Below, one piece after another: positions 15-56,966 of a stretch of 64,000 nucleotides of DNA. The stretch spans positions 36,556,819-36,620,818 of the forward strand of contig NC_089275.1 of the NCBI RefSeq assembly GCF_963678975.1, in the 5' to 3' direction. Below the pieces are notes generated by a model. The model was not told the origin of the DNA. It saw only the letters and a list, made by a program, of their open reading frames with translations, and made no database searches. The stretch comes from Dysidea avara. Lineage: Eukaryota; Porifera; Demospongiae; Dictyoceratida; Dysideidae. The stretch's first letter is position 1, and the number at the start of each line of letters is the position of its first letter. A program made the translations under genes and the position numbers.

Positions 15-442
15 TAGGGACCCGCCGATTATGCTCATAATTTTACCTATTATGCTATGCTGCACTGCTCAAAAATTTACATATTATACTCAAATTTATG
101 CTCAATACTTACCTATTATGCTCAAATTATGCCCAATTATTTATGCCTTAGTTCTCACTCGTGCTCTGCTATAAATAATAAGTGGCTGAAGCATCAACCG
201 TGGCTTACTTGTCAAAATGCATATCACAGAAAAGATCGATATACTCTAATAGAACAGTCAGCTTTGTGTTTGTTCTATTAGAGTTACTGATTGTTCTATT
301 AGAGTATATCGATCTTTTTGTGATAACTATTTTAGAATTCATACTATTACACAAATTTCTACCTATTATGCTAGCATTATGCTCAATGTTTTCAGACATC
401 TATTATGCTCATAATTATGCCAGCATAATCGGCGGGTCCCTA
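15..442. mobile_element. hAT-like miniature element, copy 1 (ATTATGC family)
   Basis: The ends are inverted repeats starting TAGGGACCCGCCGATTATGC at the left, with the reverse complement at the right. The flanks share TGTACATG (7-14 and 443-450), consistent with an 8-bp target duplication of hAT type. The inside has many copies of CCTATTATGCT and an internal palindrome of the TACTCTAATAGA motif. There is no coding capacity. Two related copies lie at 662-1177 and 23726-24153. Confidence 0.75.
226..322. repeat. TACTCTAATAGA motif, inverted copies
   Basis: The sequence reads AAAGATCGATATACTCTAAT then AGAACAGTCAG, followed by further copies in reverse orientation ending GTATATCGATCTTTTT. It forms a hairpin-capable core inside the surrounding miniature element. 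The same motif recurs at nine other places in the window. Confidence 0.8.
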
Positions 443-661
443 TGTACATGTTTATTTTTACCTTATTTGGTATTTATGTATAGCATTCTTGTTTGTAATT
501 TGCATATGGATGAATTTCATATATCTATGAACATAATAAATTATTCTGTGGTTCTATTAATTTTGCTGTATAGGTACATGCTGTAGCAATGTCAATTTCT
601 CTGTAAATTTACACTGCTGAATAACAGTAGCACAAACAATTTTCTGCTGTATACAGTATAC

Positions 662-1177
662 TAGGCACCAGCCTATTATGCTTTTCATTTTACCTATTAT
701 GCTATGCTGCAGTGCTCACAAAGTTTGCCTATTATGCCCATATATGTTTGCCGCAACTTTCATGTTTAACTAACAGTTATGCAATTTGCCAATTTCTGTA
801 TAATGGATAACAATAACTTTTGGCTTGTGAGAAATTGTTCTAAGTTAACCATTTAGAAATAATTCATTTAGCAGTTTATTATGTCAAATGTTTAAATTAT
901 GTAGTTCAGTGGTTCATTAGAATTACTAATAAGGCTACATACCACTATAGTTTAATTGTTTGTGTGCGTGCGTGTGTGAAGAGAATGTAAAGTATACACA
1001 CACAAAAAAGAAATAACTATAGGAAAGTATATTACACTCTAACTATAGATGGAGTAGCTAAGTATGTCAATCCTTTTCACTGATAACAGTATGGCAAAAA
1101 CCTACCCATTATGCTAGCATTATGCTTCAAGAACCTACTGTGCTCCAAATTGTGCCAGCATAATAGGCTGGTGCCTT
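662..1177. mobile_element. hAT-like miniature element, copy 2 (ATTATGC family)
   Basis: The left end TAGGCACCAGCCTATTATGC matches the reverse complement of the right end (GCATAATAGGCTGGTGCCT). The inner ATTATGC part is shared with copy 1 but the outer bases differ, and they differ in the same way at both ends. No convincing target duplication was seen. It is non-coding. Confidence 0.65.
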
Positions 1178-1866
1178 GTACACACACATGGTAAATTAGG
1201 GCAATTGGACTTTTCTAAGATTTTGGGGGTAAGAAATGTGATTGTATAGCTATGTTAGTTTTAAGTACATTCATGCAATGTTTTATACCAAAAATGTGAT
1301 GATTAGTTTGCATATACTTTGCAATCATATAGCCACAAATTTTAAAAACTACAGAAGTTGTTGCAGGAAGGTCACTTTATCCAGTAAATCTTGTCATGAG
1401 TCATTTTCATAAAAAAACTTCAGTTGGCTATGGTTAAGGCTACATAATACAGGCTTCAATATTATTGGTATCAGCCATTTTGGTTGGTATCTTATTGGAA
1501 TCAGTTATGGTTTAAGTGACCAATACCATAAGTGATATTGCATGACATCACATAATTGTTTTTCAAGATGGTGGCATATCTAGTGAGTGGAATGTACCAT
1601 CACAGGATAATATAGGTACGTATAACCACGAATTACTTGAAAAAAGCCAGTGATTATGATTGTTGGTACAGTTGAATGGGCAGTATAGCTATGAAACAAG
1701 ATTCTTTGAAACCATACATAATGGCTAATTGTCATTGCATGATGGCCACAAACCCAATTCAACAAGCATGAGAGACAATAACAAATTTATTGTATTTTAA
1801 GTAAGGTGGCTTTTTACAAAGCAGTCAATACAAAGTTCATTTGTCAAGTTGTTAGCTTTGCACAAG
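1178..1866. other. non-coding stretch, nothing recognised
   Basis: No exon-like reading frame, RNA gene or clear repeat boundary was seen. The sequence is AT-rich with short alternating phrases such as GGTATCAG near 1470-1510. Confidence 0.5.
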
Positions 1867-1926
1867 CAGTGCAAAGCTATAGAAATGCTTGTAAAGATAG
1901 CCCATTGTAACTAGGTGATGGCAAGG

Positions 1927-3699
1927 CTAGAAGACAAAAGATGGCAAATCTAGTTGTGTCAACCTCTCTGAGTAAGATTTGTCTTGAAGTTGTGGGATGA
2001 GACGAGTAGCCCTTCGTTGTATCTTCTCTACCTTTCTGTTGTCTAGAATATAATGAGGCCCCCAAATAGGATTATTGTATTCCAAGATAGGTCGAACTAA
2101 TGTATTGAACAGACAAGTTAGCATGGTAGAGTCAAGGTATTCAAATGATTTCTTAATCAAACCAAGTACTCGGTTAGCTTTGGTAGTAACTTGAGTGGTG
2201 TGATGGTGGAATTTGAGCTGATCGTCAAAAACAATACCGAGGTCGCTGTGCGTTGCATTGATGTCAATAAATATTCCGTTGAGACAGTAAGGACCATAGT
2301 GGTGGGCTGGGCCGAAGTGAAGGTGTTTGCACTTGGAAATATTAAAATTCAAAAGCCACTGTTGTGACCATCCTTGAAGTAAGTCTAAGTCACTCTGTAA
2401 TGCAGTATAGTCTTCTCTATTTCTAATGACTCGAAAGATTTTTGTATCATCAGCAAACAATAGCACCGGACTTGATACAATTGATGGTATCTCATTTACA
2501 AACATCGTGAATAGTAGGGGACCCAGCACAGAACCCTGGGGGACACCACTAGTAACTGGAATAGTGGAAGATTTATGGCCATTAAGTACAACTTGTTGCA
2601 CTCTGTTAGATAAAAAACTTTCAATCCATTTTAGCACATTTCCATGAATACCAAACGATGTTAACTTTTGCAATAAACGTCGGTGTGGAACAGTATCGAA
2701 GGCTTTTTGGAAATCTAAGTAGATTACGTCAATAGAATAGCCCTCATCAAGATGATGAGTTAAATAATCCAGCATCAGAAGCAATTGAGTGGAACACGAT
2801 CTTCCTGGTATGAAGCCAAATTGATAGGGAGACAGTAAGTTGTTTGTGGATAGGTGGTTCAGTATATGATCTTTGACAATGGATTCCATTAACTTGCTGA
2901 AAATAGAAGTGAGGCTGACTGGTCTATAATTGCAGGCCAGATTCCGTGCACCTTTTTTGTGAATAGGTGTTACATTGGCACACTTCCAATCTGAAGGTAA
3001 AGTGCCACTATTTAGCGATTTATTAAACAGGATAGATAATGGTACAGAAATAAATTCACTTACAGATTTGATAATAGTTATAGGCCATCCGTCTGGTCCA
3101 GAGGATTTATTACTTTGTAGAGCTATTAGCTTGCTGAAAACAGTTTCAGGAGTGATTTCAATGGAGTCATCAAGGAGAGGGGAACTAGTTGAATCAACTG
3201 TTGGAATACTTGTGGTGTCCTCACAGGTAAATACACTAGAAAAGTATTCATTAAAGTGAGTAGCCATTTCAGTATCGGAATGTATTGCAGAACCATCCGA
3301 GGAGACCAACTCGGTAACACCTGGGCGTACTTTTGTCCTTGAGTTAACATATTGCCAGAATGCTTTAGGCCTAGATCTGACACCTTGAGCCAGATTCTTT
3401 TCGTAGTCTTTTCTAAGGTTACGAGTCAAGCTTCTAAGCTGATTATTTACTGATTTAAAGTTTGCAAGGTCTATGAGAGAACGGGTCGAGAGGTACTTTT
3501 TCCAAAGATGATTCTTTTTCCTTTTCAAACTAAACACTTCAGAGTTACTGTATAGGCTTTTCTTCTCCTTGGGCTTGTAAGTAGGAACACAATTGTCAAG
3601 AGCATCCTGAAAGATTGACCTAAATTGCAACCAAGCATCGCTCATATCAAGGGGGTCCAATAAGGATACCCAGTCAACATCACCAAGAGTTTGCTTCAT
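1927..3699 (-). CDS. LINE reverse transcriptase (jockey/CR1-type), truncated element
   Basis: This 590-residue frame encodes the RT part of a non-LTR retrotransposon polyprotein. Residues 1-160 are the linker that normally follows the endonuclease. The RT core runs from about 195 to 460: SGPDGWP at 200-206, NYRPVSLTS at 258-266, YLDFQKAFD (catalytic Asp329) at 327-335, SGVPQGSVLGPLLF at 384-397 and FADD at 415-418. The thumb and connection region follow. The frame stays open upstream to about 3753, where a stop occurs, and no apurinic endonuclease domain precedes it, so the element is 5'-truncated. The frame ends abruptly after LDLPSFVF, where related proteins usually continue, so the 3' end is decayed as well. 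The catalytic residues are intact, so the loss may be recent. The family assignment (jockey versus CR1) is not settled by eye. Confidence 0.9.
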   Translation of the reverse strand: MKQTLGDVDWVSLLDPLDMSDAWLQFRSIFQDALDNCVPTYKPKEKKSLYSNSEVFSLKRKKNHLWKKYLSTRSLIDLANFKSVNNQLRSLTRNLRKDYEKNLAQGVRSRPKAFWQYVNSRTKVRPGVTELVSSDGSAIHSDTEMATHFNEYFSSVFTCEDTTSIPTVDSTSSPLLDDSIEITPETVFSKLIALQSNKSSGPDGWPITIIKSVSEFISVPLSILFNKSLNSGTLPSDWKCANVTPIHKKGARNLACNYRPVSLTSIFSKLMESIVKDHILNHLSTNNLLSPYQFGFIPGRSCSTQLLLMLDYLTHHLDEGYSIDVIYLDFQKAFDTVPHRRLLQKLTSFGIHGNVLKWIESFLSNRVQQVVLNGHKSSTIPVTSGVPQGSVLGPLLFTMFVNEIPSIVSSPVLLFADDTKIFRVIRNREDYTALQSDLDLLQGWSQQWLLNFNISKCKHLHFGPAHHYGPYCLNGIFIDINATHSDLGIVFDDQLKFHHHTTQVTTKANRVLGLIKKSFEYLDSTMLTCLFNTLVRPILEYNNPIWGPHYILDNRKVEKIQRRATRLIPQLQDKSYSERLTQLDLPSFVF

Positions 3700-3755
3700 T
3701 AGATCAATATTTGCCGCTCTTGTATTATATTTCAGTGTCTTGATAAAGCGTTCAG

Positions 3756-6200
3756 CTACGTTTATAATTTACTCAATTATATTACATTGCAAGTTATGCT
3801 ACAAACAAGTCACCCTGTAGTTCAGATCAGCTAGAAGAAGGTACCTAATAGAGAGTTCAGCTACAAAGAAACCATCATTTAGAGAGTTCTAGGGGCGGAT
3901 CCAGGATTTTTCAAGAGGGGGGTCTCTGAGCTGGGTGGAAGGTAACCCCCCAACATACAATTATTTAACTCAGTACACCCGACCTACGGCTGTACGTAGC
4001 ATTCATACATAAAATGTGCCCTTAGGCAAACTTTAACAAGCACGATGTGTGTATCTAGCTATAACTAGCTGGTAACCTACACTGCTCTTTGTGTAGCTTA
4101 TTGGCATACTATGCTATTGTAGACTTATAGCTTACTACATACACAACTTCTTGCCATACAGTATAGTCATGATGAACGATGGATCACTTGACACCTGTTC
4201 ATCGTACCAGATTTTCGATCACACTTCTTGCTTTCTGTCCGACACCCTCGCAAAAGTGGTACCAAAAGTGAACCTTGTACAAGTGCGAGTGTAGTTGGTC
4301 TTCCTGAACAAGTTGAAGGAACTACTGGAGTAGCTAACTCCTGTGTCACTGTAATTCATACTATCAAGTGCGGGGACCGGCATTGATTCTGTGCCTTCTG
4401 GGTGAGGTCTCAAGAACAGCCGAGTGATATCACGTGCCCACATTGACCAAAGGCTGAGTCAGGTGTATTATGCACCTATCAATGTATTGCCCCACCACCC
4501 CCCTCGGGGCGTAAGCGGGGCTTTACAGGGGAATTGACACGAAACTGCTGCCCCACTATGGGGCATTTGACGAACCTTACGTTCATGCAGTAACAGGGGC
4601 GTAGCTAGCCAGAACATGATGGAGGGGCAGGCATGCCCCCACGAAACGCTCAAAATATTCATGATTGCAAAAGGGGCTAATGACCGAAGGTGGGCTAGCC
4701 AACATACGGTGTTGTATTATTACAGCTTACACAACTAGCTACGTAACCATTCCAGTACTGATTGCTTATCACGTATCAATGATTCAATGGAGGTATAATT
4801 CGTCGAGCATCATCGCACGTGCCACAACTGTACTCAAACAAATTCATCCACAGTCCGGTAGAGCTATATTGTTACTATTTTAGTGTTAATACAATTACTG
4901 TACCTTACGTTAGCCACAGCTTTTGCTGCAGTCCTAGCACACCGCTGACAGGATGACACGTTCACTCACTTCACTCGGCGAAATCCGAGGGGTCCGTAAC
5001 GCAGTACTTAGATTTGAGATTTGAGAAATCTTAAGAAAAATTCAAGATTTTGACTGAGATTTGAAAAGATTTTACAAGATTTTAAGATTTCAGTTAAGAT
5101 TTGAAATACTATGTTGTAGTGCCGTGTTCTGTGCCTGGTATGAGTCGAGGTACGAGTCTACTGGAGAGGCTACTCTTTAGCTATTGCAATACTGCATACT
5201 ACCAGCAATAGAGCTTAGTATATGTGGCTAATTTGCCTAGTTAAATTGGCGGCTTTTCCCGCTGACACGTAGCAAGTTAGCCTATAGCTAATGGAACTAT
5301 TCCCAATGCATCTATACAGTTACCTCACATAGTAAGTAATCATGACTAAGAGCTAGCTCTCCTTGTAGTGATCTCAGTAGTGATTGAAAATGCCTAGATC
5401 TTGAGTTGTACATACTTCATTTGTACTGAGCAACCAAGATAGTGACATAGCAAACTACTTCAGTGCTGGTCACCGTAGCTAAAGCATTCAATCAAATCAA
5501 ATAGCCCTGCATGCGCACATAAGCTCAGTAAATCTCACACTAGAGTTGGCAAAGCTTAATTATACTATTATTAACTACTAATTTGCCCTAGCTTTTCATG
5601 CCATACATGCATAGCTGTATTATAATACTGTACATGTATGCATCAAATAATATGTCTAAAATCATCATGTTTTGCCATGTCCATGCAAGTTGTGTACATT
5701 TTAACTATATCATTATGTAGACATCTCTTGCAACTGCTAACAGTTGGGCTGCATAATTGTCTTGATAATTGTGTACAGGAACTTCAGCATATCAATGGTG
5801 TAGTTGACTTCAGCAAATGTGGAATAATATGATATCAAAGATACCACACAATTAGATTTTACACATAGATTCCACACTTATATATAATATAACTTATAGT
5901 GCAACTGTCTTTGAGACTGTCTACCTGAGTTAGCAAAGTGATGTGGACATTGACCCATTGAGATATAAATTATTAGCTAGTATATATATATGCTTGTTAA
6001 AGTTTGTGCGTGTATTGTAAATTGTATGTATATACATACGTACATAAACTCAGCTAAGCGAAGGTATCAGATGCGTTCATGCATTTCACTCATATGATTA
6101 GTTTCTACCATACACATACACAATCTCACAACTTAATATCTAATACAAAAATGAGTACACGAGTTCCTTATGATTGATCATAGTTACAAGTTATAATTAT
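3756..6200. other. intergenic region with transposon debris
   Basis: No gene was recognised. It contains phrases typical of hAT-like ends (GGGGCGGATCCAGGATTTTT near 3893, CAGGGGCGTAGCTAGCCAG near 4593), each without an obvious partner end, and a low-complexity AAGATTT stretch at about 5010-5105. The last 250 bases before 6201 are probably the 3' flank of the minus-strand transposon-like gene. Confidence 0.5.
5010..5105. repeat. AAGATTT/TGAGATTT low-complexity repeat
   Basis: Degenerate short units of GATTTGAGATTT and AAGATTTTGA type repeat over about 95 bases. Confidence 0.6.
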
Positions 6201-9200
6201 TTATGAGTCAATACAACTTGAACAAAACCATTTGTTCAGTTTAAATTCGTTTAGGCGACCACTTATACACTCTGCATGATACCATTTCTTGCATTTATCG
6301 CAAGCAACCATCACTTCACCGGTATCTGGTCCTCTACATGTACAATAAACATTAACAGGGAACCACGTTGATGCCTTTCTTCTTTGCCTGATAATGGGGA
6401 AAACAGACATTTTCTGCGTTTCTAAACAATTAAGTAAATGACGTCTTAAATGTTTCTGGTCATATACAACAGTAGAGGGATTTTCTCCAAAGGCCAAAGC
6501 AGTGCAGTAGGCTGCAGCAAAAACTCCACAGTCTTTTGTTCCAGATTGTTTGTTAACCTTTGATAATTCAACCTTAAATTGATCTTTCTGAGTGTTCAAA
6601 AGGCTTGCTAGAATTACTTGTGTATCAATGCTTACAACAGAGTTTAGAGAGTCATATATTGTAATGTCTGCCTTCTCACAGTTCACTGTCGAAGCAACAA
6701 CCCAATGGTTGTTGTTAATGTGAAAAATTTGTGCAGATCTTATCCCACTTTGAAATGGCTTGATATGGCTTCTTGATTGCAGTAGAATGGTATTTTGAAG
6801 ACCTCCTATGTGTGGAAATTGTTGTTTTAGCAAAACCTGCACAGCATTTAAGTGCAGATCTGTCAGCCACTCATTATTGCACAGCATATTTCTTTCAGCC
6901 TTACACAAAACAAATGAACCAATTTTCAGCCATATTTCTGACTTTTTACATGTCTTTGCAGCTTCACTACTTTCCCCACCATTATCATAATCAATTACAA
7001 TAGCTTCATCATGTACGCACGTCATTTGATCTCTCTTTAAAATCTTTTCACCACCAGAATCATCACTCTTCAGAACTTCCTTAGCAACAACATCTTCACT
7101 TTGTCCACAAAACTCAACCGTCTGAGTAAATGCTGTCATTTGGTCATCTTTTGGAAGCTCTTGGTCGCCAGGATTATTGCTCTGTTGACAAAGTTCTAAA
7201 TCACTGACATCTACTGTCATGGTGGAACTTGCAGTAACTGTGTTGTTAACAGCCACATCATCAACTTGTTCATGACAACAGTCTGAACTGCCTGCAATCA
7301 ATGTGTCCACTGCCATTGTGTCACTCTTGTTAGCTTTGTTAGCCACAGCATCATTATCCTGTTCATCATACTTCACAGCGGTAGTTTCCTTTGATTCATA
7401 AGTAGATGTGTATGGCTGTTTAAATCTAACTCTGAAGATGCGATCAGCTGAAACATATTCAGTTTCTTGAAATAGCCATATTGCAGTTGTTTTTCTAATA
7501 AGAACAACTTGTCCTTTCATGCTTACTTCAACAAATGGAGAAATCATTTGCTTTGCATTACTGCTAAGGCTGGCTAAATAACTATTAAGGTCATTATGAC
7601 CTTTCAGTGTATACAATGGTATTGTGTCAGATTTCAATTTATCAACAGGCAGAGATCGCTGCATTTTTTGCAAAGTTTTATGAGAAGCTTTGCTAGCTTC
7701 TTTGGTCACCAGACCTCTATCACATGCTGATTGAATATCCTCAGATACCTCTTTGTGTGTTTCTGACCACACTTCCTTAATAATTTCTAGGGAATTGTCA
7801 TCATTTTCATCAGTGCTGTCATCATGGCCATAGTCATCAATATTGTCAATATCATCATCGTCACCATTCTGCACACCAGCTAGATCTTCGGTCGTGTTTT
7901 CATTGTCCCACACAGAGTGTACTCTTAAAAGTTTGTCCATGCCAAGTTCACATAGGGTTTGTCTTGCTTTTGCTTTTGCTCTTTCCACAGCTTCAGAAAT
8001 TTCATTGTCTTTGATGTCACTTAATGATGACACAGAAACTTTGTTCTTTCCCTCTTTATTGCGATGCCTTTGCACACTTGGAAACTTAACAGTCTCCTGC
8101 AATTCAGCTTGCAATGCAAGTTGGATATTCATTCGATGAAGCCTTCTGAGCAGACCTAGCATGCTAAAATTGAGTACAGTTGAAAAAACACTGCTCATGC
8201 TTCTGACTGTCCGAAACATTCTTTCACAAGTCTGGGACCCAAGCATCCAAGGTAAAAAATTTCTGGCATCACCATGAAAATGATCTCTAATAGTCAATGC
8301 ATACACTATTATGGCATGTGCATTTAACTCTACACACATGTAACAATTACGTGTGATGAAGTTGTTTTTCAAGGTATAAGAGTGGTGGAGCATGATCCAC
8401 TTACGCCAATACCGCAGAAAGAAATTTGCATACCAAATTTTCTCTATCCTGCTAATGCAATCTAAGCTTTTGTCCTCATAACTGTCTACAACATTTTGGA
8501 TTAGTTCCACATAACATTTGGTTGCGAAAGCACCAGGTATTTTGTCGAGCAAGGGACATGCATTGATTATGTGCAATACTGCATCATAATTTTGCTTATC
8601 ATGATGGTTTAAATCTCTTTCCCTTAGAAAATGATCTTCTTTACCATATTTAGAGCGCAACTGTTCTAAATGATGCACTCCAGCTCCAAAGGTTGGTCCC
8701 AATTTAAGATTAACCCGAGGGTTTAATAGCCGTGCCTTAAACTTTACTGCAATGTGGACCACATCTTGAACATATGAAATTGAAGTTGGATTGATGCAAA
8801 ACCAATTCTTCCATGTTGAACTTATGTTAATTGAGGGCAAAGAAGGAAGGGTAAGATCATTGGGAGGATTTATCAGTGAAACTGATATTTTCATGGCCTT
8901 CATTACCCTAGAGTCTCCATCTCCCCCAAAGCTTATGACTGTAATGCCTCGTTTTGCACATTCTGAATATATGTGGTTCCAACGCTGTAGGACATGCTCA
9001 GCAGTAAACTTTTTGTCACTTCCAAAGCATGTCAAACAAAAGGGTGGCACATTAACCGCCAAAGGTTGTGCCATGTACACATATGCATACTTTGCAATAG
9101 ATCCACTTTTGAACATATTCTCTATTGCTGAAAATGAAGTGGCTAAAAATGAGTCAACTAAAGGTAGGCCACAGTCATCAACAGGGAGGACAAAACCAAC

Positions 9201-9572
9201 ACACCTATCTGTCTCTGAGTCATAGTCCACCCTTCCAATTACTCTTGTTGCATCTTCCCCAATAGATACTATTTTAGGTGCATTGTGATCATTGATATGC
9301 TCAATCAAATCACTAAACCTAAATCTACCTTCGTCCATAATCTTGTACTGCGAATGAATTATTCTTTGCACAGTCCTGAGAGATGGCAGTGCATGAGGCA
9401 TGTTCTGATGAATAAATTCATAGCACAGAGGACCACTGTAGATAAATAATGCTGTGGCAAACTTCTTGAGAAGCTCTGAATGCCTTCGTTGGGTTGGGTA
9501 TTTACAGACATTTTTATCTGCATTCAGCAACATTTGTTTCACTATTGGGGTAAATCCATGACCACCACCCAT
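6201..9572 (-). CDS. transposase-like protein with Ulp1/SENP protease and PHD finger
   Basis: This is a 1123-residue uninterrupted frame. Residues 1-470 resemble a DDE-type transposase core: GEDAT (Asp107), FGGDGDSR (Asp218/Asp220), DVVHIAVKFKARLL (a D-x2-H-x3-K element, Asp270) and QTCERMF (Glu450). Residues 560-900 are acidic and low-complexity. Residues about 900-1060 form a Ulp1/C48 cysteine protease domain with the complete catalytic set: His956 (NNHWV), Asp974 (IYDS), Gln1009 (KQSGTKDCG) and Cys1015. The C-terminus is a PHD finger of Cys4-His-Cys3 form (C1077, C1079, C1091, C1094, H1099, C1102, C1117, C1120). The frame is open upstream of the chosen Met to about 9790, encoding a further ~70 residues with a possible leucine-zipper-like stretch, so the true start may be an upstream exon or the neighbouring ORF. 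SUMO-protease and chromatin-reader roles are known for these domains. Whether this is a live transposon or a domesticated gene is not decided. Confidence 0.8.
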   Translation of the reverse strand: MGGGHGFTPIVKQMLLNADKNVCKYPTQRRHSELLKKFATALFIYSGPLCYEFIHQNMPHALPSLRTVQRIIHSQYKIMDEGRFRFSDLIEHINDHNAPKIVSIGEDATRVIGRVDYDSETDRCVGFVLPVDDCGLPLVDSFLATSFSAIENMFKSGSIAKYAYVYMAQPLAVNVPPFCLTCFGSDKKFTAEHVLQRWNHIYSECAKRGITVISFGGDGDSRVMKAMKISVSLINPPNDLTLPSLPSINISSTWKNWFCINPTSISYVQDVVHIAVKFKARLLNPRVNLKLGPTFGAGVHHLEQLRSKYGKEDHFLRERDLNHHDKQNYDAVLHIINACPLLDKIPGAFATKCYVELIQNVVDSYEDKSLDCISRIEKIWYANFFLRYWRKWIMLHHSYTLKNNFITRNCYMCVELNAHAIIVYALTIRDHFHGDARNFLPWMLGSQTCERMFRTVRSMSSVFSTVLNFSMLGLLRRLHRMNIQLALQAELQETVKFPSVQRHRNKEGKNKVSVSSLSDIKDNEISEAVERAKAKARQTLCELGMDKLLRVHSVWDNENTTEDLAGVQNGDDDDIDNIDDYGHDDSTDENDDNSLEIIKEVWSETHKEVSEDIQSACDRGLVTKEASKASHKTLQKMQRSLPVDKLKSDTIPLYTLKGHNDLNSYLASLSSNAKQMISPFVEVSMKGQVVLIRKTTAIWLFQETEYVSADRIFRVRFKQPYTSTYESKETTAVKYDEQDNDAVANKANKSDTMAVDTLIAGSSDCCHEQVDDVAVNNTVTASSTMTVDVSDLELCQQSNNPGDQELPKDDQMTAFTQTVEFCGQSEDVVAKEVLKSDDSGGEKILKRDQMTCVHDEAIVIDYDNGGESSEAAKTCKKSEIWLKIGSFVLCKAERNMLCNNEWLTDLHLNAVQVLLKQQFPHIGGLQNTILLQSRSHIKPFQSGIRSAQIFHINNNHWVVASTVNCEKADITIYDSLNSVVSIDTQVILASLLNTQKDQFKVELSKVNKQSGTKDCGVFAAAYCTALAFGENPSTVVYDQKHLRRHLLNCLETQKMSVFPIIRQRRKASTWFPVNVYCTCRGPDTGEVMVACDKCKKWYHAECISGRLNEFKLNKWFCSSCIDS

Positions 9573-9738
9573 ATTGAAGGAATTTAAACCACACTGCTTT
9601 ATTAGGTTTGATAACCTTTCATTCTCTTTAGCTAGAATTTCTATTTCATCTAAGATTTTGAAATAATCTGTAATTAAAGTTTGAGTGGGATCAAGTTCAA
9701 CTTTTCTTTGCTTTCGAGAAGTGCAAAAAGTTTGATTT

Positions 9739-9766
9739 GCCCCTCCTTCTACACTGAAGGAGGGGC
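9739..9766. repeat. perfect 11-bp hairpin between the two ORFs
   Basis: GCCCCTCCTTC and its exact complement GAAGGAGGGGC are separated by 6 bases. It lies in the stretch joining the two minus-strand frames, where the reading frame must change. Confidence 0.75.
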
Positions 9767-9840
9767 TTAGTGAAAAACCTGTTCTGGCTTGTCATTCAAT
9801 GACACTGAGCTGCTAATGGTTTTAGCAACAGCTGGTTTGG

Positions 9841-10587
9841 TCAGGCATTGGCTTGCTGAAGGTGCAACTGATTGCTTAGAAAACAGTGTGGATCAACGAC
9901 ATTGTGTAGAGCAGCACACTTCCTGACATGCCTAGTCCAATTTGAAAGTATGAAACGGCTATTTTGAAGTTGCAAGCGAATTGATTTATTGCACATACCA
10001 CAATTTACTGCAGCTGCAATTTTCCCATTGTTTTGACCTTTTACAACTACAGAGTAATGTGTTTTCTCCTTTAAGGAGCTCAGGTGCATTAATTTCGCTT
10101 TGCATATCCAGTCCTTTACGCTCTCAAGAACTTGACAACTAACATCATCCACTGACAATAAAGCCTGATTTGCAGCCTTGTCAACTAGCTTGGTCTTTTT
10201 AGCTGTTATGCATGGCTTGGTGTGCTGTGAACTAACTGCCTTGAGAGACAAATTTTTGCTCAATTGTTTGACCTCTTCAACAAATTTACAAATTCTAATG
10301 CGATGACCTGGCGGAAACTCAAATGGCAGTGAATTCATAGACTCCGGTGTGCAGCATGGTGGTAACATTTCTGGATTACTTTTGTGTGCCTTCTCGATAT
10401 ATCGCTCAATTGTACTTATACTGTTCCCCTCACCATCAGTTATGTCCATAGATGCTATTATCTTAAGTTCATCATATCCTGCTGCTTTCAGACAATTTGT
10501 GACATAAGTGGGCAACTGCTTGTCCATCAGTGCAAGTATATCAACTTCCAAACTGGTAGTGGATAGTGTCTGAGGTTGCTGCTCCAT
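9841..10587 (-). CDS. BED-like zinc-finger protein, first ORF of the transposon-like unit
   Basis: The frame encodes 248 residues starting MEQQPQTLST. Residues 17-50 look like a short helical SAM-like segment (LALMDKQLPTYVTNCLKAAG). Residues 196-224 hold C-x2-C then H-x3-C (C196, C199, H220, C224) around SNWTRHVRKC, a BED-like zinc finger of the kind used for transposon DNA binding. It lies directly upstream of the 1123-residue transposase-like frame on the same strand, with 268 bases between stop and next Met. Frame analysis shows the intervening bases are partly coding in the downstream frame. The two ORFs may therefore be exons of one gene, or one ORF split by a frameshift. The product family was not recognised by name. 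Confidence 0.65.
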   Translation of the reverse strand: MEQQPQTLSTTSLEVDILALMDKQLPTYVTNCLKAAGYDELKIIASMDITDGEGNSISTIERYIEKAHKSNPEMLPPCCTPESMNSLPFEFPPGHRIRICKFVEEVKQLSKNLSLKAVSSQHTKPCITAKKTKLVDKAANQALLSVDDVSCQVLESVKDWICKAKLMHLSSLKEKTHYSVVVKGQNNGKIAAAVNCGMCNKSIRLQLQNSRFILSNWTRHVRKCAALHNVVDPHCFLSNQLHLQQANA

Positions 10588-11282
10588 CTCCTGTTATCTT
10601 TCACTAAACAATAATAGATGAGATATATAGTAATTTAATCTGCTCGAATCTATTGAGCTAAGAGTGTGATATCATTTGGACACATTACTTGCTGGCATGG
10701 TAGAGTTAAGCTTACACATTACATAGTGCATGTTGCTACATAGCTAATTATAATTGGACAAAGCTTTCATACCTGAGCTTAATGATGTGGGATGCTGGCA
10801 CAAGATACCAGTGCAGGAATATTCAAAAGCATGCAAATTCTTTGTAACCAAAACCTTCAGAAACTCCGTGTTGTGACTTGATCCACAGCCACATACAATC
10901 AAGACATGTGCCTATGGTTATGGAGCCATAACAGGGATTATTAGTCTTCTCTGTATTCTTCTTGCCAGCATGTCTCTGACTCCCTATACTGACAAAGGCT
11001 TTCAGTAGCCTTCACAGCTGAGGTCCCATATGAGTGAGATAACAAATTAAACTACATAGCAAATATCACTACTCATATCACTAAAAGCAGGGGTCCCACA
11101 TGTGTAGCTAAACTTTTCATTTGCTGCATGAATGTTGACTAGTCTATATCGAGGTCTATACTATATCTAGGTCTATACTATATCTAGAATATAGAGATTG
11201 AGATGTGTTGATTATAATTACTGCATGATGATTTTCAAGAATGTGAATATTGACGAGACGCGAGACGAGACGTGCTAGCTAC
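10588..11282. other. upstream flank of the transposon-like unit
   Basis: No coding signal was seen. It may hold the promoter and end of the minus-strand unit. Short repeats are visible: CTATACTATATCTAG around 11155-11187 and GAGACGCGAGACGAGACG just before the gap. No terminal inverted repeat matching the other side of the unit was found by eye. Confidence 0.4.
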
Positions 11283-11482
11283 NNNNNNNNNNNNNNNNNN
11301 NNNNNNNNNNNNNNNNNNNNNNNNNNNNNNNNNNNNNNNNNNNNNNNNNNNNNNNNNNNNNNNNNNNNNNNNNNNNNNNNNNNNNNNNNNNNNNNNNNNN
11401 NNNNNNNNNNNNNNNNNNNNNNNNNNNNNNNNNNNNNNNNNNNNNNNNNNNNNNNNNNNNNNNNNNNNNNNNNNNNNNNNNN
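11283..11482. other. assembly gap (200 N)
   Basis: Exactly 200 ambiguous bases, a fixed size typical of scaffold joins rather than a measured gap. The sequence just to the right is strongly palindromic, which may explain the break. Confidence 0.95.
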
Positions 11483-12475: not shown

Positions 12476-12648
12476 ATACAAATTATGGCACTGGCGGTGC
12501 CTTTGAACTTCCCACGCAGAGTGGTACATACTACAATGTGTACTGTGACTCATTCCGCCAGCACTCCTTCTTGCGTCCTACATCACCCACTCTGTTCCTT
12601 CCTAAAAACAGGCTTTGCCAATTTCCCTTAGATACCTTTACTAGAAAT

Positions 12649-13694: not shown

Positions 13695-13729
<35 letters not shown>

Positions 13730-36790: not shown

Positions 36791-37082
36791 CAGGGGCGGA
36801 GGAAGTAGTTGATATGAGGGGGCCCAGACTTAGTCTCTGGTTTGGTATGGTGAGACCAAAAAAAAAAAAAAAGTGATAAACTACACTGATAAAAATCCTT
36901 AATACATAGCTTGCTACACACTGCTCTAATACTGTGACTGCTTTATTAGAGTGACTGCTCTATTAGAGTATCTCGATCTTTATCACGGTTTTCAGCCCCA
37001 CTCCACTGAAGAAGGATAACTTCGGCGTGGTATCATTCTGAGGGGAGCTAAGCCCCCTAACCCCCCCCCCTTTCCGCCGCCT
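36791..37082. mobile_element. CAGGGGCGGAGG miniature element with 11-bp direct repeats
   Basis: The left end CAGGGGCGGAGGAAG pairs with the right end TTTCCGCCGCCT. ATGACTCCAAG occurs exactly on both sides (36780-36790 and 37083-37093). It contains the TACTCTAATAGA motif at 36936-36982. Confidence 0.75.
36936..36982. repeat. TACTCTAATAGA motif, direct pair
   Basis: TGACTGCTTTATTAGAG is followed at once by TGACTGCTCTATTAGAGTAT and CTCGATCTTT, within the CAGGGGCGG element. Confidence 0.8.
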
Positions 37083-37377
37083 ATGACTCCAAGAAACAGC
37101 CGGTGTTGTTTGGTGACTGTCAGTGAAGTGCCATTCATTACATATATAAACTTTTGCTATAGTGGTTTGAAATATTTTACAATAATGTCATTTTTCTGTC
37201 CATTTTGACAACTTTATCAGATTTTGCTGGAGTTAGGTGATCAGTTGTGCTATGAATAACTTTGCATATAAAACATTCATCCACAAAGAATTTCGCATCT
37301 CAATTTTATCTGGCTATTAATACCTTCTGCTATAAATTAATATGTCATGACATTAGCTAATATGTAGTAAAAACTAG

Positions 37378-37544: not shown

Positions 37545-37559
37545 AGACTGGGACCGGGT

Positions 37560-45600: not shown

Positions 45601-47355
45601 GCATACAAGTGTATACGTATGTACATAACTGTACAGACAGATAAAATAAAAAAGCACATGTATGCATGGCTACAAAGTCACATCAAGAATGTCGACTCCC
45701 CAAAGGACAGACAAGAGAAGGTGACAAATGGGGAACCTGTAGAAGTGCAGAGCAGTACACAATAGAGTGTGACTTTTATTAGACGTGGGCAGGTACCTAC
45801 TTTAGGATTTGAGGCCTAGCTGAATCTAGGGACTAACATTAAGCCAGTTTGAAACCTAGTGATTACACAAGGATAATCTCACAGTAAGGGACTTAGGGAC
45901 TTAACCATTTTAGACCAGCAACCTTGGGACCTAGGGATGACTGACAGATAATCCTTCAGTCCTTTAGTAGTTGAGTCCAGAGACCAAAGAATAGCTTCAA
46001 GAAACTAAAGGACATTTGTTGGCAAATCTGAAAGGTTATAATGCACACAGCGTTAGTGGAAAACCAAATGACTTGCCTAGTGTTGTAAAACACTTACACA
46101 GCCATCATGGACCACACTCACACACACAGACAGACAGACAGACAGACAGACACACACACACACACACACTTTACCATATAAAAGTCAGTCCAGTGTTAGC
46201 TGGTCCATTATCAGCAATAATATCCAGTATTCTTTCACTGCTGTAACTTTGTCTTATCAACACGGAGAAGACAGAGCAGAACACCAGAAGGCCACACAGT
46301 AGACTGACAATATTGTTACTGACTGGAATTAAGACACCATTTCGGACAGCACCGTTTGTTCTCTTCATGTACGTGGCATATGTCAGGAAAGCACAGCCTG
46401 CAGCTCCTGTAATATGGGACACATGTATGTAAGTAAGAATGGGCTAGATACATACATATATACAGAGTGACAAGATAGTGAGTCAACACTGGGAATTTGC
46501 TTAATACTTTATAAACTATTTACCTTATTGAGAGTATAATATGTACATAATGCATGTATTTAATGCTCATACTGCATACATTTGGTACAAAAACTTTTTT
46601 TTTACCACAAACATATTTCTAGCTACTAGCAGACAAACCTGTGTCCCAAGCATTCTGGGTTATAGCATCCAGCCACATCTTGGAGTCAGTTAGTGAGCCT
46701 GCATGAAGTAGATGAACCTTAAACAACCATATATTGTTGTATGTTCACAACTACACTTTTTGTGTGTAAATTATTTGTGACCACCACATCCACCAGAAGC
46801 ACTCTACTGTTCTTGAAGCCAAATGACAGTGAGAGTTCGCTCATTGTAGCACGCTCACACAGGCAGCACAGCATGAAGCTTCTAATGTGCTACACCCCTA
46901 AGGAAAACAGTAAAACTATCACGGTGTCGGTACAATGAAATGCCTTGATAAAATCTTTTGTGAGGACAGTAAATACAATTTAGTCTTCATTCCAATCTTC
47001 TATTATTAGCATGAAACATTTAGCTGCTGTGTATATTCAGTATTCATGAAGCAGACATTTTAGACATGCGTCCACAGCTGGCTTTAATAAGGGCTAATGC
47101 CTTACCAATAATCTATAAATCTGAGAACCCTTTACAAAGGATAAAATGACTTCTGAAGATATTTGACCTGCTGTATATAGATACGTATGGCACACAGCTG
47201 TTGGTTGACAATATTAACAACTACATCTATAAGATATGTAGTAAACAACGTGACAAAGTATCTCTACAGGGCGTACATGTATGCAGTGCATACCCTGTAT
47301 GTATGTATGTATGTATGTATGTATGTATGTATGTATGTATGTATGTATGTATGTA

Positions 47356-47398
<43 letters not shown>

Positions 47399-50300: not shown

Positions 50301-53108
50301 CAAGCAGGGGTTCACTACACGGAGGAAATACTATTTACTCGATGCCTGTGACATATCTGTTCTTATAAGGGTTTGAACAAATATCAACACCAATTCTCTA
50401 TCGTCACTATAAGTGGATTCGACTATAAAGGGCAAAACTAAGACAGTGCCTTGCATAGCAAGCTATAACAGCAGTTTACATGCACTTTCTAACATTAGCT
50501 CTCACTTGTTTCATTGATCAGTGACATGTTTGTTTAGCTAGATATGATTTAATTTGTTATTCAGAAGCTCTGTACCAAAAAGGTTGAGCACAAAATTCAT
50601 TAGCAAATATCCTGGTAACTTCGATGTTGATATCTGTTATAGTCTACCAGGGCCTGAAATTATGTTTTGGAAATGATCTGACAAATCCTGTTATGTGGTT
50701 GGACATACTCAATGTTACTGTATAAAAACTTTCTAAAAACGTTCAGACATTTGCCAGAAATGGTTGGAAAATGGCAGATGTGTCCGACCATAATTTCAGA
50801 CACTAGAGTCTACCATACACCCTTTGATCGCCTTATAATTTATGATAATTTGATGCAATCAACCAAAAAATGTGAGAATTAAAGAACCACACAGTGAACA
50901 GATCTGCACTACATGCATCAGTTGGCAGGTTCCAGTTGGCAGGCTCCAGTTGGCAGGCTCCAGTTGGCAGCCACCAATGTGTAGTTAAAATGGCAAGATG
51001 TGATCAGAATAAAAGCACATCATTAGAGACAAAAGGTGGGAGAAACGGAGGAAGGGAAATTTCTAAATAGTTAATCCACATAAAAATTGGGAGACAATGA
51101 TTTGTTGAATTCCAAATTTTTGAACAACAATGGATCCTAACAAGGCAAAACGAAATATATTTGATGGATAACATTTGAGTGATACATATAAGTACACGTA
51201 CATGCATAATTTACTAGTGCAATAATTCTTTCCCTCCAAATTTTGTACAGGACCAACCAGACACTTTCTAAGGAGATGCAGTCTCATTGAATAAGTACCA
51301 CCACTGCTATTGGGTTATCACCACTAGACATGGTTTATGCTATACAAACACAACACAATACTCACCTCCACCTGTAGCATGTATTGCAACGATCCTTGGG
51401 TAACGCCATATGTTGCCAGTACCCACAACAGATCCAAGACAGGACAGCACCAGACCAATACCACTGAATGTCTTCTGTAAAATAAGGAGTACACAAAAGG
51501 TAAATACACAAAAGGCCCAGCACAACTTGAAAAGATAGACATAAAAAAAAGAAATGCGCAATGGATATTGACAGTGGTACCATTTTTCTTATACAAGTAC
51601 ACAAAAAATTAGGAATTTTCAACTAGAGTAGGGACCATAGCACATTGATAAAAAGTACTGAAACAAGCTGGAGTAGTGCACGATATTAAATCACAGTAAA
51701 ACTATAAGAAGTGTTATATCCCTACTGGTATCTTGAGCACAGTAGGGATATAACACTTCTTATTGTTTTACTGTGATTTAATACCGTGCACTACTCCAGC
51801 TTGTTTCAGTACTTTTTATCGATGTGCTATAGTCCCTACTCTAGTTGAAAATTCCATTTTTTTGTGTACTCGTTTGTTGACTTTTTTGTAAAATAAAATT
51901 ATTATGACTGGTGTACCCACGCATACTGCATCAAAAGAAAGAAACGGTGCCATGTACCCCAGCTACCAAATATCATCTGAAAAGTGAAGTATCCATTACA
52001 CTTCGTTGTCAGCTATGTTCAACCCGTTACTCAGCATTACGAATCAAGAACTGTTCAAAAATCACCTCTGCAATCAAAGTAGCCACTATGAAGAATGCAT
52101 TGTACATACTGCGGTATGCCAAAAGGCACCTCTCGGGCTGAAGCGACATTGAACAGTGAAAAAATCAAGCCCGTAGCCTTAGCCGATATTGAGTTACACT
52201 TGTCTGAAGGCATCAGTCAATCAGGCAGTCAGTCAGTAGAAAATTTCGCTTTAAAATTTTATTTTAAAATTCCATAGCAACTTGTTGAAGCGTTTCGGGT
52301 CAATCTGAAAGCTTGTTTGTACCTCCTAACCAATACTGCCTCATTGCTGTCAGGGAAAATTGAGGCTAGTTTTTGGGTGATGTTTTTTTGTGGGCCACGC
52401 CTACACCTTTGTGGTTCCTACTATACAGTACTATTGTACTCCATGATACGTATCACATGATCAAAGATTTTTGTACCACTGGTGGCTGATCCTTAAATTT
52501 GGGAACTAGTTAGAGCAGTCACAGAAAACTACGTTCTGGGAGCCAGTAACAAAAATCTGCCCTACCACACTGCTATTTTGAGTATTGGAGAATAAGAAAG
52601 CAAAATTTTTACTGTATTCAACCTGTCCATCTTCGTCCTCGGTCAAAATCGAAAGATAAGCCTTGACCCTTGACTTACGCTAAAATTTACACTTAACTCT
52701 TGACCAAATTCTTGCATATTTTTTTTGTAAAATTATGCCACTCTAAAAGTATCAATTGTGGTATACAATTTACAAACGAAGCTTGTCTTTTGGCCTACTG
52801 AAAATTTCTTACTTGACTTGACTTTCGATTTGACCGAGGACGAAGATCAGAGTACAGGATATATTGGAGTGCCACCCCCTTGCGTACTTAGAGTTATTAA
52901 CAATCCTTCTATATGGAAGAACGGCTATGCCGAATATAGGAGTTTAAAACCAAATTCAATTCAATTCAATTCTGTAAAATAGACTTGTTAACACACTCAC
53001 CTTTTCATTTACTTCTGGCTCTACAGAGTCCTCCTTATCACTGCCAACTTCGCCTCCTCCAACAGTCAGTAGACTGGCCTGCTCCGAGGATCGCTTAGTT
53101 TCTGCCAT
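39653..53108 (-). CDS. SLC6-family sodium symporter, paralogue B (596 aa)
   Basis: Thirteen exons, in coding order: 53001-53108, 51366-51474, 49883-50066, 48844-48955, 47765-47966, 46639-46698, 46175-46406, 45408-45544, 45154-45245, 42897-42998, 41292-41341, 40475-40598 and 39653-39931. All boundaries are GT-AG and the phases close exactly (1791 coding bases). The start MAETKRSSEQASLL was chosen because it aligns with paralogue A. The frame is also open to an ATG at 53141. TM1 reads GSVVGTGNIWRYP, TM6 reads QNAWDTGAAGCAFLTYA, TM7 reads NNIVSFL-like residues (SNNIVSLLCG), and TM8 reads LAGLSSVVSLME. Trp81, Asp257, Asn289 and Ser293 occupy positions discussed for ion binding. Exon lengths match paralogue A except that its 292-base TM6 exon is here split into 60 + 232. 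The family moves amino acids or related solutes with Na+. The substrate is unknown. Confidence 0.93.
40141..40196. repeat. TACTCTAATAGA motif, direct pair
   Basis: GATATACTCTAATAGAACAG TCAGG, then ATATACCCTAATTGAACAGTCACC. It lies in an intron of SLC6 paralogue B with no surrounding terminal repeats seen. Confidence 0.75.
40752..41150. mobile_element. hAT-like miniature element, perfect 8-bp duplication
   Basis: The left end TAGGGTTGGGAGGTATT pairs with the complement of the right end (TAGGGATAGGCGGTAT). It is flanked by AAGCCAAC at 40744-40751 and 41151-41158. The size is 399 bp, in an intron of SLC6 paralogue B. Confidence 0.9.
41376..42014. mobile_element. TGTGACC-family inverted-repeat element
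   Basis: The left stem reads GAGACCGGCTGAGCAAAAAC CAACCGTTTTT. The right stem is its complement, ending CTCAGCTGGTCACA. The interior (GGGTAAAAATATG, GCACTATACCTTGATTGATT, CAGTTCATGG) is homologous to the elements at 14745 and 54021. It lies in an intron of SLC6 paralogue B. Confidence 0.75.
42393..42690. repeat. transposon-like repeat with G/C-run ends
   Basis: CAGGGCTCAACCCAGAATAT and GGGGGTCTGGGGGCATGCTC sit at the left and a run of C then CCCCCCTAGATTAACCCCTG at the right, forming loosely inverted ends. The phrase GGGGCATGCTC...TTTTGAAAATT is shared with 18262-18300. Confidence 0.5.
43053..43280. mobile_element. TGTGACC-family element, 228 bp
   Basis: The left stem TGTGACCGAATTTGACAAAA CAAGTGTTCC and an inverted right stem ending TTTGTCAAAGTTGGTCACA are flanked by TA. 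It lies in an intron of SLC6 paralogue B. Confidence 0.8.
43325..43800. mobile_element. probable hAT-like element (TGTTGTACCGATA end)
   Basis: It starts TGTTGTACCGATAACC and contains several CCGATA/TATCGG-type inverted phrases (GATCCGATATACAC, CAATATCGATCCG). TATCTCAGTACTAG occurs on both sides (ending at 43324 and again at 43802-43815). The exact right boundary is uncertain. Confidence 0.5.
43944..44574. mobile_element. TGTGACC-family element, 631 bp
   Basis: The left stem TGTGACCGGATCTTGGAAAA CCTACCTTTT and its near-exact complement are found at 44545-44574. The inside is AT-rich and non-coding. Confidence 0.85.
46118..46173. repeat. (AC)n(AGAC)n microsatellite touching an SLC6-B splice donor
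   Basis: On the coding strand it reads GTAAAGTGTGTGTGTGTG from the donor of the 46175-46406 exon, then GTCT repeats. It is in the same position as the GT repeat in paralogue A. Confidence 0.9.
47297..47415. repeat. (GTAT)n(GT)n microsatellite
   Basis: About 16 GTAT units, then GT repeats, then GTAT again, in an intron of SLC6 paralogue B. The ORFs here are repeat artefacts. Confidence 0.95.
49006..49676. mobile_element. TA-flanked element (CAATGGAATCTC ends), host of a nested element
   Basis: The left end CAATGGAATCTCGGTTAGAG and the complement of the right end CAGTGGAACCTCTCTTTAC are flanked by TA. It is interrupted by the element at 49080-49458. It lies in an intron of SLC6 paralogue B. 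Confidence 0.65.
49080..49458. mobile_element. CCGTATTTTACC miniature element
   Basis: The ends CCGTATTTTACCAGTTAATA (GCCGCGG follows) and complement CCGTATTTGACCGGTTAATA are flanked by TA. The size is 379 bp. It is inserted inside the CAATGG element. Confidence 0.85.
50648..50806. mobile_element. CAGGGCCTGAAATTATG miniature element, copy 2
   Basis: It is full-length homologous to 35639-35794 in inverted orientation (shared CATTTCTGGC, GAGTATGTCC, GTCAGATCATTTCCAAAACA). AGTCTAC occurs directly on both sides. Confidence 0.8.
50921..50970. repeat. 14-bp tandem repeat, 3.6 copies
   Basis: The unit GTTGGCAGGCTCCA is repeated, the first copy with one base changed. It lies in an intron of SLC6 paralogue B. 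Confidence 0.9.
51597..51870. repeat. foldback palindrome, 130-bp arms
   Basis: Arms 51597-51726 and 51741-51870 are almost perfectly complementary (for example TAGAGTAGGGACCATAGCAC against GTGCTATAGTCCCTACTCTA), with a 14-base loop. It lies in intron 1 of SLC6 paralogue B. Confidence 0.92.
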
Positions 53109-54664: not shown

Positions 54665-54716
54665 TATTGTGATACTACAAAGTAGTACATATACATTAGA
54701 TTTTATTAAAAGATAG

Positions 54717-55026
54717 TAGGGTTGTGTGATTACAATTGCAAGTGATTGCTACCCAGTATTTAAGATTATGCGATTAATTGCATTCTGAGATGAATGCCTT
54801 CATTTAGAAAAGTTTAACAGTTACTCATCTCTCATCTCTGATCTATTTTGTGACATGAGGCTTCCTTTGTTAGCATTACTTATGATACAGGTTGGTTCTA
54901 TGGTGATAGCAATTGTAGAATAATATGGCTCTCATGGTAGCTAGTAGGTTATAAGGAGAATGTACTATTTTAGATTAATCGATTTTTTTTTGCGATTATT
55001 GCATATCATGATTAGCGCACAGCCCT
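54717..55026. mobile_element. hAT-like miniature element (TAGGGTTGTGTGATTA end)
   Basis: The left end TAGGGTTGTGTGATTACAAT and the complement of the right end GAGGGCTGTGCGCTAATC form loose inverted repeats around a degenerate ATTGC-rich interior. The target duplication is unclear. Confidence 0.55.
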
Positions 55027-55172
55027 CAAAGCAGACAGTCACAGAATATATTCTCTAATCTAACTCTGTGGCATTATTAACTCAATCATTTGGTTGTAAA
55101 CTAGCGTCTGCATTTCAATCTTGAGCGGAACATGGTTATGTGTGTAATCTTCAAGTAAATACACCCAATATA

Positions 55173-55423
55173 TGTGACCGGATTTGCGAAAGGTACCTTT
55201 TTCACACATAAAATTTGACCCATTTTTTCAACTTCCAAACTTTGTAACTTTCATATCACTGCAAGCACGTATCTGTAATTTTCCATGAGTGTGCCTACAT
55301 TATGTGGCTACATTGTGATACAAAAAGAAAGTCAATCAGTGCAAGGAGTCAACAGTTATGACATTTTGTTTGCTGGTATGTCAAATGTGTGGAAAAGGTA
55401 CCTTTTCGCAAATCCGGTCACAT
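55173..55423. mobile_element. TGTGACC-family element, 251 bp
   Basis: The left stem TGTGACCGGATTTGCGAAAG GTACCTTTT and right stem AAAAGGTACCTTTTCGCAAA TCCGGTCACA are flanked by TA on both sides. Confidence 0.88.
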
Positions 55424-56633
55424 ATTGCGATACACAATATATCAATATATTAAAAATTGTGTCAATACCTGTATCACTGTCATGCGTACTGCAATACAGC
55501 AATGTATTGGGTCTTCCCACATATCCACTATAGCTTCTAAAACCCTTTAAATTACTGAGGAGACCTCTGTTAAAACTAGCGCTATTGCATCTTACTGGGC
55601 CATTAGCTAACAAACTTAATATAGCTATCACCCCTAATACAACAGTCAGTAACACTACAGTCATTCAATAAGAATCACGTGTACTTTTTTTGTTCATAAT
55701 ATACAAACAAGTGAATATAATATGTTAAGTCATGAAACAGAAGGCTTGGTAAAATTGTCTAATGGATATATTTTTAAATGGTTTTTTTTTTTTTTTTGGA
55801 AAATCCAATCGCAAATGTTTAGAAAAACTTTTTTTGAAAACGTCATAGTTTCTCCACCATCCTGCAAGCAGTATCTTTTTATTAAAGAATTGTCATGTTG
55901 TTATGGAGTTTTCATATCACCAAAGTTCTTCTTATTCAATGGATTTCGGTATACCATGTGTATGTGAGAGAATCTTGAGTTCCATTTTTGGATAGAACCT
56001 TCATTACGGTATGTCACTGTGAACTTAAATAATTGGTACTGAATCGCGTTTATCTGTTACGACTTGTGTATACACTGTTCATGCATGATTAAACCAGAAA
56101 CTTGTATAATTGATCACATCAAATGTTCAATGTACCATTTTCATCCAAAATGGTAGGGCTAGTGGAAATACTACGTGTGTATGGCTCAGTTTTTTTCTAA
56201 ATTGCAGGTACAAAAATTTTGTTTTAAAAGACACTTGCTTAAATTAAATTTCCCACTATAATACTAATGGGAAAACCCTTTGCATCAAAAATAAAAACTC
56301 AAGCCAAATCAGAAATTGTTCATCATTTTTACTTGTTTCACTAAGTATTTCCATGATAGTCATTTTGCATTCACGTTTCTGTGGACCTTTGAAGATCAGT
56401 AATATCACAGAAGTGAACATTTATCCTTTCTATGTGTGTATTCACAATCAAAGTTAATCTGTCATTACATGTGTAAGCATGCCAAACTATTAAGGGGCGT
56501 CCCAAACTACAGCTTTAAAAATCTTAAAAGTGTTTGTTCTGTGATTATGCATGTCTTTGAAGTTACTGTGTTTGTAGGTGTTGGTTCACATCGAGGCATC
56601 ATGGCTTTAGTGCTTTCATTTCTGTAGTGTGAG

Positions 56634-56832
56634 TAGATTGGTTGCAGTGGCGCTTCTCGCATTGTTCTTCATTTCTAATGCTGTAAATCAGGTGGAACAT
56701 ACGTAGCTGAAACTGAAGTGGAAATTCATGTTTCAGTAATTGATTAGTTGTCGTACACGTTCTGTTGTAGTTTCTATAGTGACTGGATTGGTTGCAGAGG
56801 TACTTTTTTGTGCTGTTCTTCATTAATGCTGG
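56634..56832. repeat. diverged direct repeats of a ~55-bp unit
   Basis: GATTGGTTGCAGTGGCGCTT ... TTGTTCTTCATTTCTAATGCTG and, 140 bases on, GGATTGGTTGCAGAGGTACT ... TGTTCTTCATTAATGCTG. A third, weaker copy is at 58302-58355 (GTGACTGGATTGCAAAGATG). Confidence 0.7.
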
Positions 56833-56895
56833 TTAATGGGTGACCTCTTTGTTAGTATTATCTGCAGCACAATGAAGTGAAGTCCTCTTCTGTGA

Positions 56896-56966
56896 TGTTC
56901 TACTCTAATAGAACACACAACACCCTCAGCCTCAGTATTTTCTGTGTGTTCTATTAGAGTAGTTAG
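56896..56966. repeat. TACTCTAATAGA motif, inverted pair
   Basis: TACTCTAATAGAACACACAA and, after 22 bases, GTGTGTTCTATTAGAGTA form a hairpin with about 18-bp arms. Confidence 0.85.

Follow-up and report, generated by a model that had tools for sequence, protein, structure and literature searches.

Non-bilaterian animals are said to lack CTCF, and loops in ctenophores and placozoans have been linked with transposable elements (PMC12221973). That study places the placozoan loop-anchor motif in the terminal inverted repeats (TIRs) of Mutator transposons, describes the CTEP1/CTEP2 zinc-finger motif of ctenophores, and reports only 84 diffuse focal contacts, found by hand, for the sponge Ephydatia muelleri (PMC12221973). 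Here, a short motif with the core ACTCTAATAGARCAGTCA is described from a 64,000-bp stretch of the genome of the sponge Dysidea avara (C4:36556819-36620818, designated as the window), where it lies inside several unrelated DNA transposons. It is tentatively interpreted, with a rough probability of 0.45, as the site of a candidate sequence-specific DNA-binding protein that may have spread partly as transposon cargo. Like the placozoan and ctenophore motifs, it is short, present in many copies, linked with transposable elements and lineage-specific, in animals said to lack CTCF. The placozoan motif differs in lying at the ends of one kind of transposon, and that study measured loops or binding (PMC12221973); the sponge motif occurs within several kinds and is much more exact. 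These motifs are its nearest precedent.

In rodents, CTCF sites were spread by B2 short interspersed nuclear elements (SINEs). The sponge motif would likewise be a putative protein site multiplied as transposon cargo, but B2 is one kind of retrotransposon with a degenerate motif, whereas the 18-base core of the sponge motif is near-exact and its hosts are many. Central tandem repeats are shared by the non-autonomous elements DINE-TR1 and Tetris and by elements of bivalves, and are also found in some miniature inverted-repeat transposable elements and Helitrons. These too are short repeats midway in unrelated non-autonomous elements; their arrays are regular, unlike the one to three copies in the sponge, which have changing spacers and often no extension. 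SINE families share conserved central domains (CORE, V and Deu), again a module common to otherwise unrelated mobile elements, although these domains are longer and belong to RNA-derived elements. The REP/REPIN sequences of bacteria are similarly very short, scattered, and single or clustered, but they are palindromic with an inverted pair as the unit, whereas direct pairs dominate in the sponge. None of the papers searched contains any of five motif strings, and literature searches on sponge repeats and shared modules, judged by titles and the openings of abstracts, gave no mention of the sponge motif.

The core motif and its copies in the genome

The original prediction placed a motif of about 30 bp at nine sites in the window and named enrichment over shuffled sequence as support. 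The motif is present at all nine sites, and two further copies had been omitted, one at 24176-24193 and a weak one at 55631-55648. The core occurs 19 times in the window with ≤3 mismatches, and the reversed pattern used as a control does not occur. The 12-mer TACTCTAATAGA (≤1 mismatch) occurs 16 times, against 0.45 on average and at most 4 in 100 dinucleotide shuffles, and the 23-mer (≤3 mismatches) 8 times, against 0 in the shuffles. The commonest 11-mer of the window after a simple low-complexity filter is ACTCTAATAGA, with 11 copies.

The conserved unit is 18-19 bases long (TACTCTAATAGARCAGTCA). Across 50 copies, information content is high over bases 1-18, falls sharply 3' of CAGTCA and fades upstream over GATCGAKAT. 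The 5' extension AAAGATCGAKAT, sought as a 23-mer with ≤3 mismatches, is found at six of the nine sites; at 25801, 40141 and 56896 it is incomplete or missing. Because the upstream extension AGATCGAKAT is kept in only 26 of 52 flank groups (≤3 mismatches; about 0.5% of 20,000 random 10-mers match at this level), with the other groups scattered and mostly near random, two forms are distinguished: a long form of about 28-30 bases and a short form of 18-19 bases. Core-only copies occur between unrelated flanks. The 3' end is sharp and the 5' part is graded or missing, so the two defined ends of an independent transposable element are not seen.

The genome searched comprises 550,814,596 bases in 108 contigs; a chromosome-level D. 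avara genome has been described with 575 Mb and 15 chromosomes (PMC12909245). The exact core was found 53,836 times (26,833 forward, 27,003 reverse), with none on either strand for the reversed pattern, and the core with ≤3 mismatches 175,330 times (87,382 and 87,948), against 1,022 for the control (533 and 489). This corresponds to one exact core per ~10 kb and one near copy per ~3 kb on average. Twenty arbitrary 10-kb stretches (200 kb) contain 31 cores with ≤3 mismatches and no control match, about half the genome mean, perhaps owing to clustering of the copies.

Cores occur singly or in small clusters, both designated here as modules. In a sample of 77 modules, 39 have one core, 28 have two and 10 have three, cores with more than 3 mismatches being uncounted; L090 and L096 were left out because they overlap L089 and L095, and L069-L098 were not drawn at random but are the first 30 places of contig C1. 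Neighbouring cores within 70 bases in the sample are direct in 41 cases, convergent in 7 and divergent in none. Exact pairs with a gap of ≤30 bases in the whole genome number 10,415 direct (overlapping triples may count more than once), 1,102 convergent and 4 divergent, the long form filling most of the allowed gap in divergent pairs, so that part of the asymmetry is geometric. Of the 50 listed convergent places, 34 cover 61 bases, the same arrangement as in the ATTATGC family described below. Direct start-to-start distances are 17, 21-23, 25, 27-32 and 51 bases. The original prediction named conserved spacing as support; both the distance and the spacer sequence vary while the cores agree. 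With one to three cores, periods of 17-32 and 51 bases and no arrays of constant period, the copies do not form a satellite or minisatellite, and with direct rather than inverted pairs as the main unit they differ from REP/REPIN sequences.

Substitutions within the core are distributed very unevenly. Among 97 copies, G15 is changed 30 times, G10 23, T3 18 and C2 14 times, A7 and A18 never, and T8, A9 and C17 once each (p = 3e-25); these counts exclude the exact copies through which L069-L098 were found, and omit 18 of 115 copies, those with 4 mismatches. The unevenness persists if a change is scored only once in any flank group (p = 2e-13; 52 groups, two ATTATGC groups having been merged by hand). 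C2>T is seen in 12 flank groups and C17>T in 1; T3>C in 13 and T8>C in 1. The low frequency of T8>C was predicted from the sample before the genome count was known, and the exact variants number 3,566 for T3>C, 715 for T8>C and 404 for A9>G in the genome. Each of these is an A:T to G:C transition outside CpG, and such same-type changes differ 5-9-fold between tolerant and intolerant positions. Even decay at 7% per site, a rough estimate from the exact and near counts, would give about 2,700 copies per variant. This uneven tolerance supports a putative binding site.

Transposons carrying the motif

Carriers in the window include several unrelated elements, as originally proposed: besides the ATTATGC hAT-like elements, there is a CAGTGGTCC element with TA flanks, and others are of the CAGTGG and CAGGGGCGG types (Table 1). 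Two details are read differently here. The 11-bp direct repeat assigned to the CAGGGGCGG element may be better read as the 8-bp duplication ACTCCAAG, and among the copies said to stand alone, the one at 40141 may sit in the tentative TA-flanked CAGGGC element. The ATTATGC carriers A and C have the TIRs and 8-bp duplications of hAT-like non-autonomous elements. The window gave no Rfam match and no tRNA in a check for known RNAs and SINE heads.

Table 1. Carriers, modules and cores in the window (positions within the window).
Feature	Position	Length	Strand	Description
Carrier A	15-442	428 bp		ATTATGC hAT-like non-autonomous element; TIR TAGGGACCCGCC, 8-bp duplication TGTACATG
Module in A	231-317			long form at both ends, convergent; cores 243-260 (+), 267-284 (-), 288-305 (-)
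Element J	662-1176			ATTATGC ends as in A (left 82 bp, 83% identity), different interior; no core even at ≤5 mismatches
Module B	18579-18629		+	long form, second core 21 bp further; adjoins a remnant ATTATGC element with its end near 18444; by its look, may lie in an intron
Carrier D	23557-24929			long palindromic element; arms ~80% alike, one module per arm; left arm split by carrier C
Carrier C	23726-24154	429 bp		ATTATGC element, 8-bp duplication CTAAAAAA; inserted within the first core of the left arm of D
Module in C	23838-23918		-	long form; three cores, of which one has an indel and the first two lie 21 bp apart
Second core, left arm of D	24176-24193		+	
Module in right arm of D	24745-24804		-	two cores 30 bp apart and long form
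Carrier P	25709-25881	173 bp		TA-flanked; perfect 14-bp TIR CAGTGGTCCCTCCA; presumably pogo/Tc1-like, judged by the TIR
Core in P	25801-25819		+	single, short form
Carrier E	27415-27896	482 bp		CAGTGGTGGATCTA element; 5-bp duplication CACAG
Module in E	27632-27686		-	long form, second core 25 bp further
Carrier F	36791-37085	295 bp		CAGGGGCGGAGG element; 8-bp duplication ACTCCAAG
Module in F	36918-36981		-	long form and cores 17 bp apart
Carrier G (tentative)	40076-40270			TA-flanked; imperfect CAGGGC TIR, 3 mismatches in 14 bases
Module G	40146-40194		+	two cores 31 bp apart, long form partial
Weak core	55631-55648		+	3 mismatches
Module H	56901-56961			two identical short-form cores, convergent, 2 mismatches each; carrier looked for, none found

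The 30-mers of modules B and F are identical, and their hosts are unrelated. The 21-base period is common to A, B and C, and the module is therefore inherited along with the ATTATGC family in these cases. As a separate observation, the module-bearing element C landed exactly inside a core of the module-bearing element D (duplication CTAAAAAA).

In the sample, 40 of 2,926 module pairs share flank sequence in register, and the 77 modules fall into 53 groups, 44 of which are singletons, although the sample is small and these may still belong to families. The remaining nine groups comprise 2 to 6 modules with common flanks. The motif is thus not confined to one transposon family. In one group outside the window, resembling CAGTGGCGGATCCAG, 5-bp duplications were read by eye (TGATT, GTGCC and GGTAC at L085, L097 and L075). 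A module family represented by L082, L083, L091, L093, L085 and L053, loci roughly 65-87% alike, adjoins a long tandem array with shifts near 154 and 60 bases, as judged by eye.

Two carrier families were followed in the genome. For the P family, 40 scored of 436 candidates gave 42 matches, 33 of which extend no further than base 68-73 of an 88-base query and stop 20-25 bases short of the core; 6 matches, the query itself included, reach the query end. For the E family, with the module cut from the query, 40 scored of 1,090 candidates gave 71 matches. Among the matches listed, all copies matching on both halves have extra bases at the cut site, 20-59 net in seven one-piece alignments and 62-71 in most two-piece ones, and their length suggests that they are the module. 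No empty site was seen among the matches listed for E, nor with the joined flanks of a module at L061:4824, whose right flank matched only itself and whose left flank shares an old repeat.

Occurrence outside the genome and other features of the window

Prokaryote genomes contain the exact 18-mer at 7 loci, six of which read as chance in bacterial DNA, the exception being L001; viral contigs contain it at 2 loci and a looser pattern at 36. None of the 45 prokaryote and viral loci has a second copy within 200 bases, and the ATTATGC-element pattern has no match in viral contigs. A bacterial or viral origin was rejected, the loci other than L001 being read as chance.

L001 lies in the AT-rich, apparently non-bacterial contig end of the bin SP12ARB1, whose source is given as a Lamellodysidea sponge metagenome (PMC7313196). 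At this end of the contig (JACOMT010000094.1), about 1.1 kb (~4250-5370 of L001) is AT-rich and seems to be sponge DNA, a contamination or chimera in a public prokaryote genome. The bin has 3 core matches (≤2 mismatches), one of them preceded by the long-form AAAGATTGATAT, and its loci L047 and L048 look similar to L001. The apparent sponge DNA of the Lamellodysidea bin carries the motif as well. Dysidea and Lamellodysidea belong to the same family.

In the window, a large open frame at 6201-9791 (-) matches a P-element-type helix-turn-helix, a Ulp1 protease and a PHD finger, and is probably part of an autonomous DNA transposon; the adjoining frame at 9841-10593 has no match. The open frame at 1927-3768 (-) is that of a reverse transcriptase, has 613 aa and looks like the non-LTR type. 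Exons at 21310-21594, 27066-27395, 29623-29958, 39653-39931 and 46171-46443 (-) look alike in pairs by eye and are perhaps a tandem gene array; the one at 29623-29958 matches sodium:neurotransmitter symporters below the curated cut-off. An inverted repeat at 51604-51863 has 124-base arms, 94% complementary, with 12 bases between them, and a tandem array at 60306-60469 has about 7 copies of a 23-base unit.

A candidate binding site and alternative explanations

The candidate binding protein, at a guess a multi-zinc-finger protein, would use either a single core or a small head-to-tail cluster of cores. The motif would have travelled as cargo in numerous unrelated non-autonomous DNA transposons, and this would account for part of its spread to ~10^5 copies. 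The carriers may have acquired the module separately, by template switching during the repair of their interiors, and protein binding would be the reason why the motif was kept. The original prediction left the choice between a mobile module and a selected site; the position-specific tolerance favors the latter, and a self-moving module is not supported, with no target duplication around the module and no empty site in joined-flank searches for L061:4824 and carrier E.

Several observations weigh against a binding site spread as cargo. Some of the copies are carried by transposons, but a general link to recognizable elements is weak and the evidence is mixed. TIRs with a duplication surround 8 of the 77 modules, compared with 39 of 600 random places; at higher stringency, they surround 6 of 77 and 51 of 2000 (p = 0.017), a weak enrichment in a test that undercounts, as carriers F, G and the L085 group, recognized by eye, fail it. 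For non-local repeats within 200 bases, the counts are 15 of 34 for modules and 101 of 300 for random places (p = 0.26). Spread as cargo does not account for the remaining copies. Moreover, 35 bits is long for a binding site, and the variants at tolerant positions could in part reflect old subfamilies that were copied many times. At roughly 7% per site, mean core divergence is of the same order as that of the carrier families, the core as a whole being not clearly slower. A bolder version of the binding-site interpretation, which we consider unlikely, proposes that dysideid sponges have a lineage-specific protein, architectural or silencing in role, with ~10^5 near-identical docking sites. Many unrelated transposons would each have acquired and installed one common label of 18-30 bases, which would pass between them without its own recombinase and give a CTCF-like network in animals said to lack CTCF. 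The E. muelleri contacts do not favor a loop role in sponges at large.

The weak enrichment near recognizable elements leaves room for two alternatives. The motif could be hitch-hiking filler, a functionless minisatellite-like stretch captured mid-element during repair and multiplied with several inverted-repeat elements. This is somewhat improbable, although it would fit the location of the module near the carrier center (at 0.61 of the carrier length in A, 0.59 in P, 0.51 in E and 0.54 in F, with 0.36 in C), the host-linked inheritance indicated by the 21-base period, and the extra bases at the module position in the listed E copies, which were judged by their length. Filler does not account for the variable spacing, for the core without extension in about half of the groups, or for the tolerance difference between same-type changes.

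The module could instead be self-moving, as are bacterial REP sequences with a transposase in trans. Its shortness, its occurrence as singles and small clusters at many unrelated sites, the 30-mer common to B and F and the equal strand counts are consistent with such movement. The boundaries of the module are not. No target duplication of its own and no enriched boundary were found in 70 same-strand modules (7 of the 77, with cores on both strands or near a locus end, were left out); summed 6-base matches around modules reach 24 against 12.6 +/- 4.9 expected, at no fixed place, and repeats of at least 6 bases beside the 3' end are not in excess. Insertion with its own duplication was rejected on this basis. 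The lack of a fixed 5' end, the scarcity of inverted pairs relative to direct ones, and the absence of an empty site for either L061:4824 or carrier E further reduce this alternative to a quite improbable one.

Slightly less credible still is the idea that one large element group has the motif as a subterminal repeat bound by its transposase, and that all carriers are decayed or nested derivatives of this group. E, F and the CAGTGGCGGATCCAG group do have similar ends, but P is TA-flanked with different ends, the ATTATGC family has its own terminal repeats, and the singleton groups share no flank in register within the sample. A single transposon family with the remaining copies as fragments, to which the nine groups with shared flanks might be attributed, is already contradicted, the window having four kinds of ends and the sample 53 groups, and can practically be dismissed. 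A small-RNA target was dropped, since the most variable position of the core, 15, is one that would pair with the seed.

An exact 18-mer every ~10 kb is extreme for a motif outside any single repeat family. If nothing binds to it, the entry of 18 bases into many unrelated sequences without insertion marks would need explaining. If a protein binds to it, this sponge would be a clear example of a genome-wide binding landscape built by transposons.

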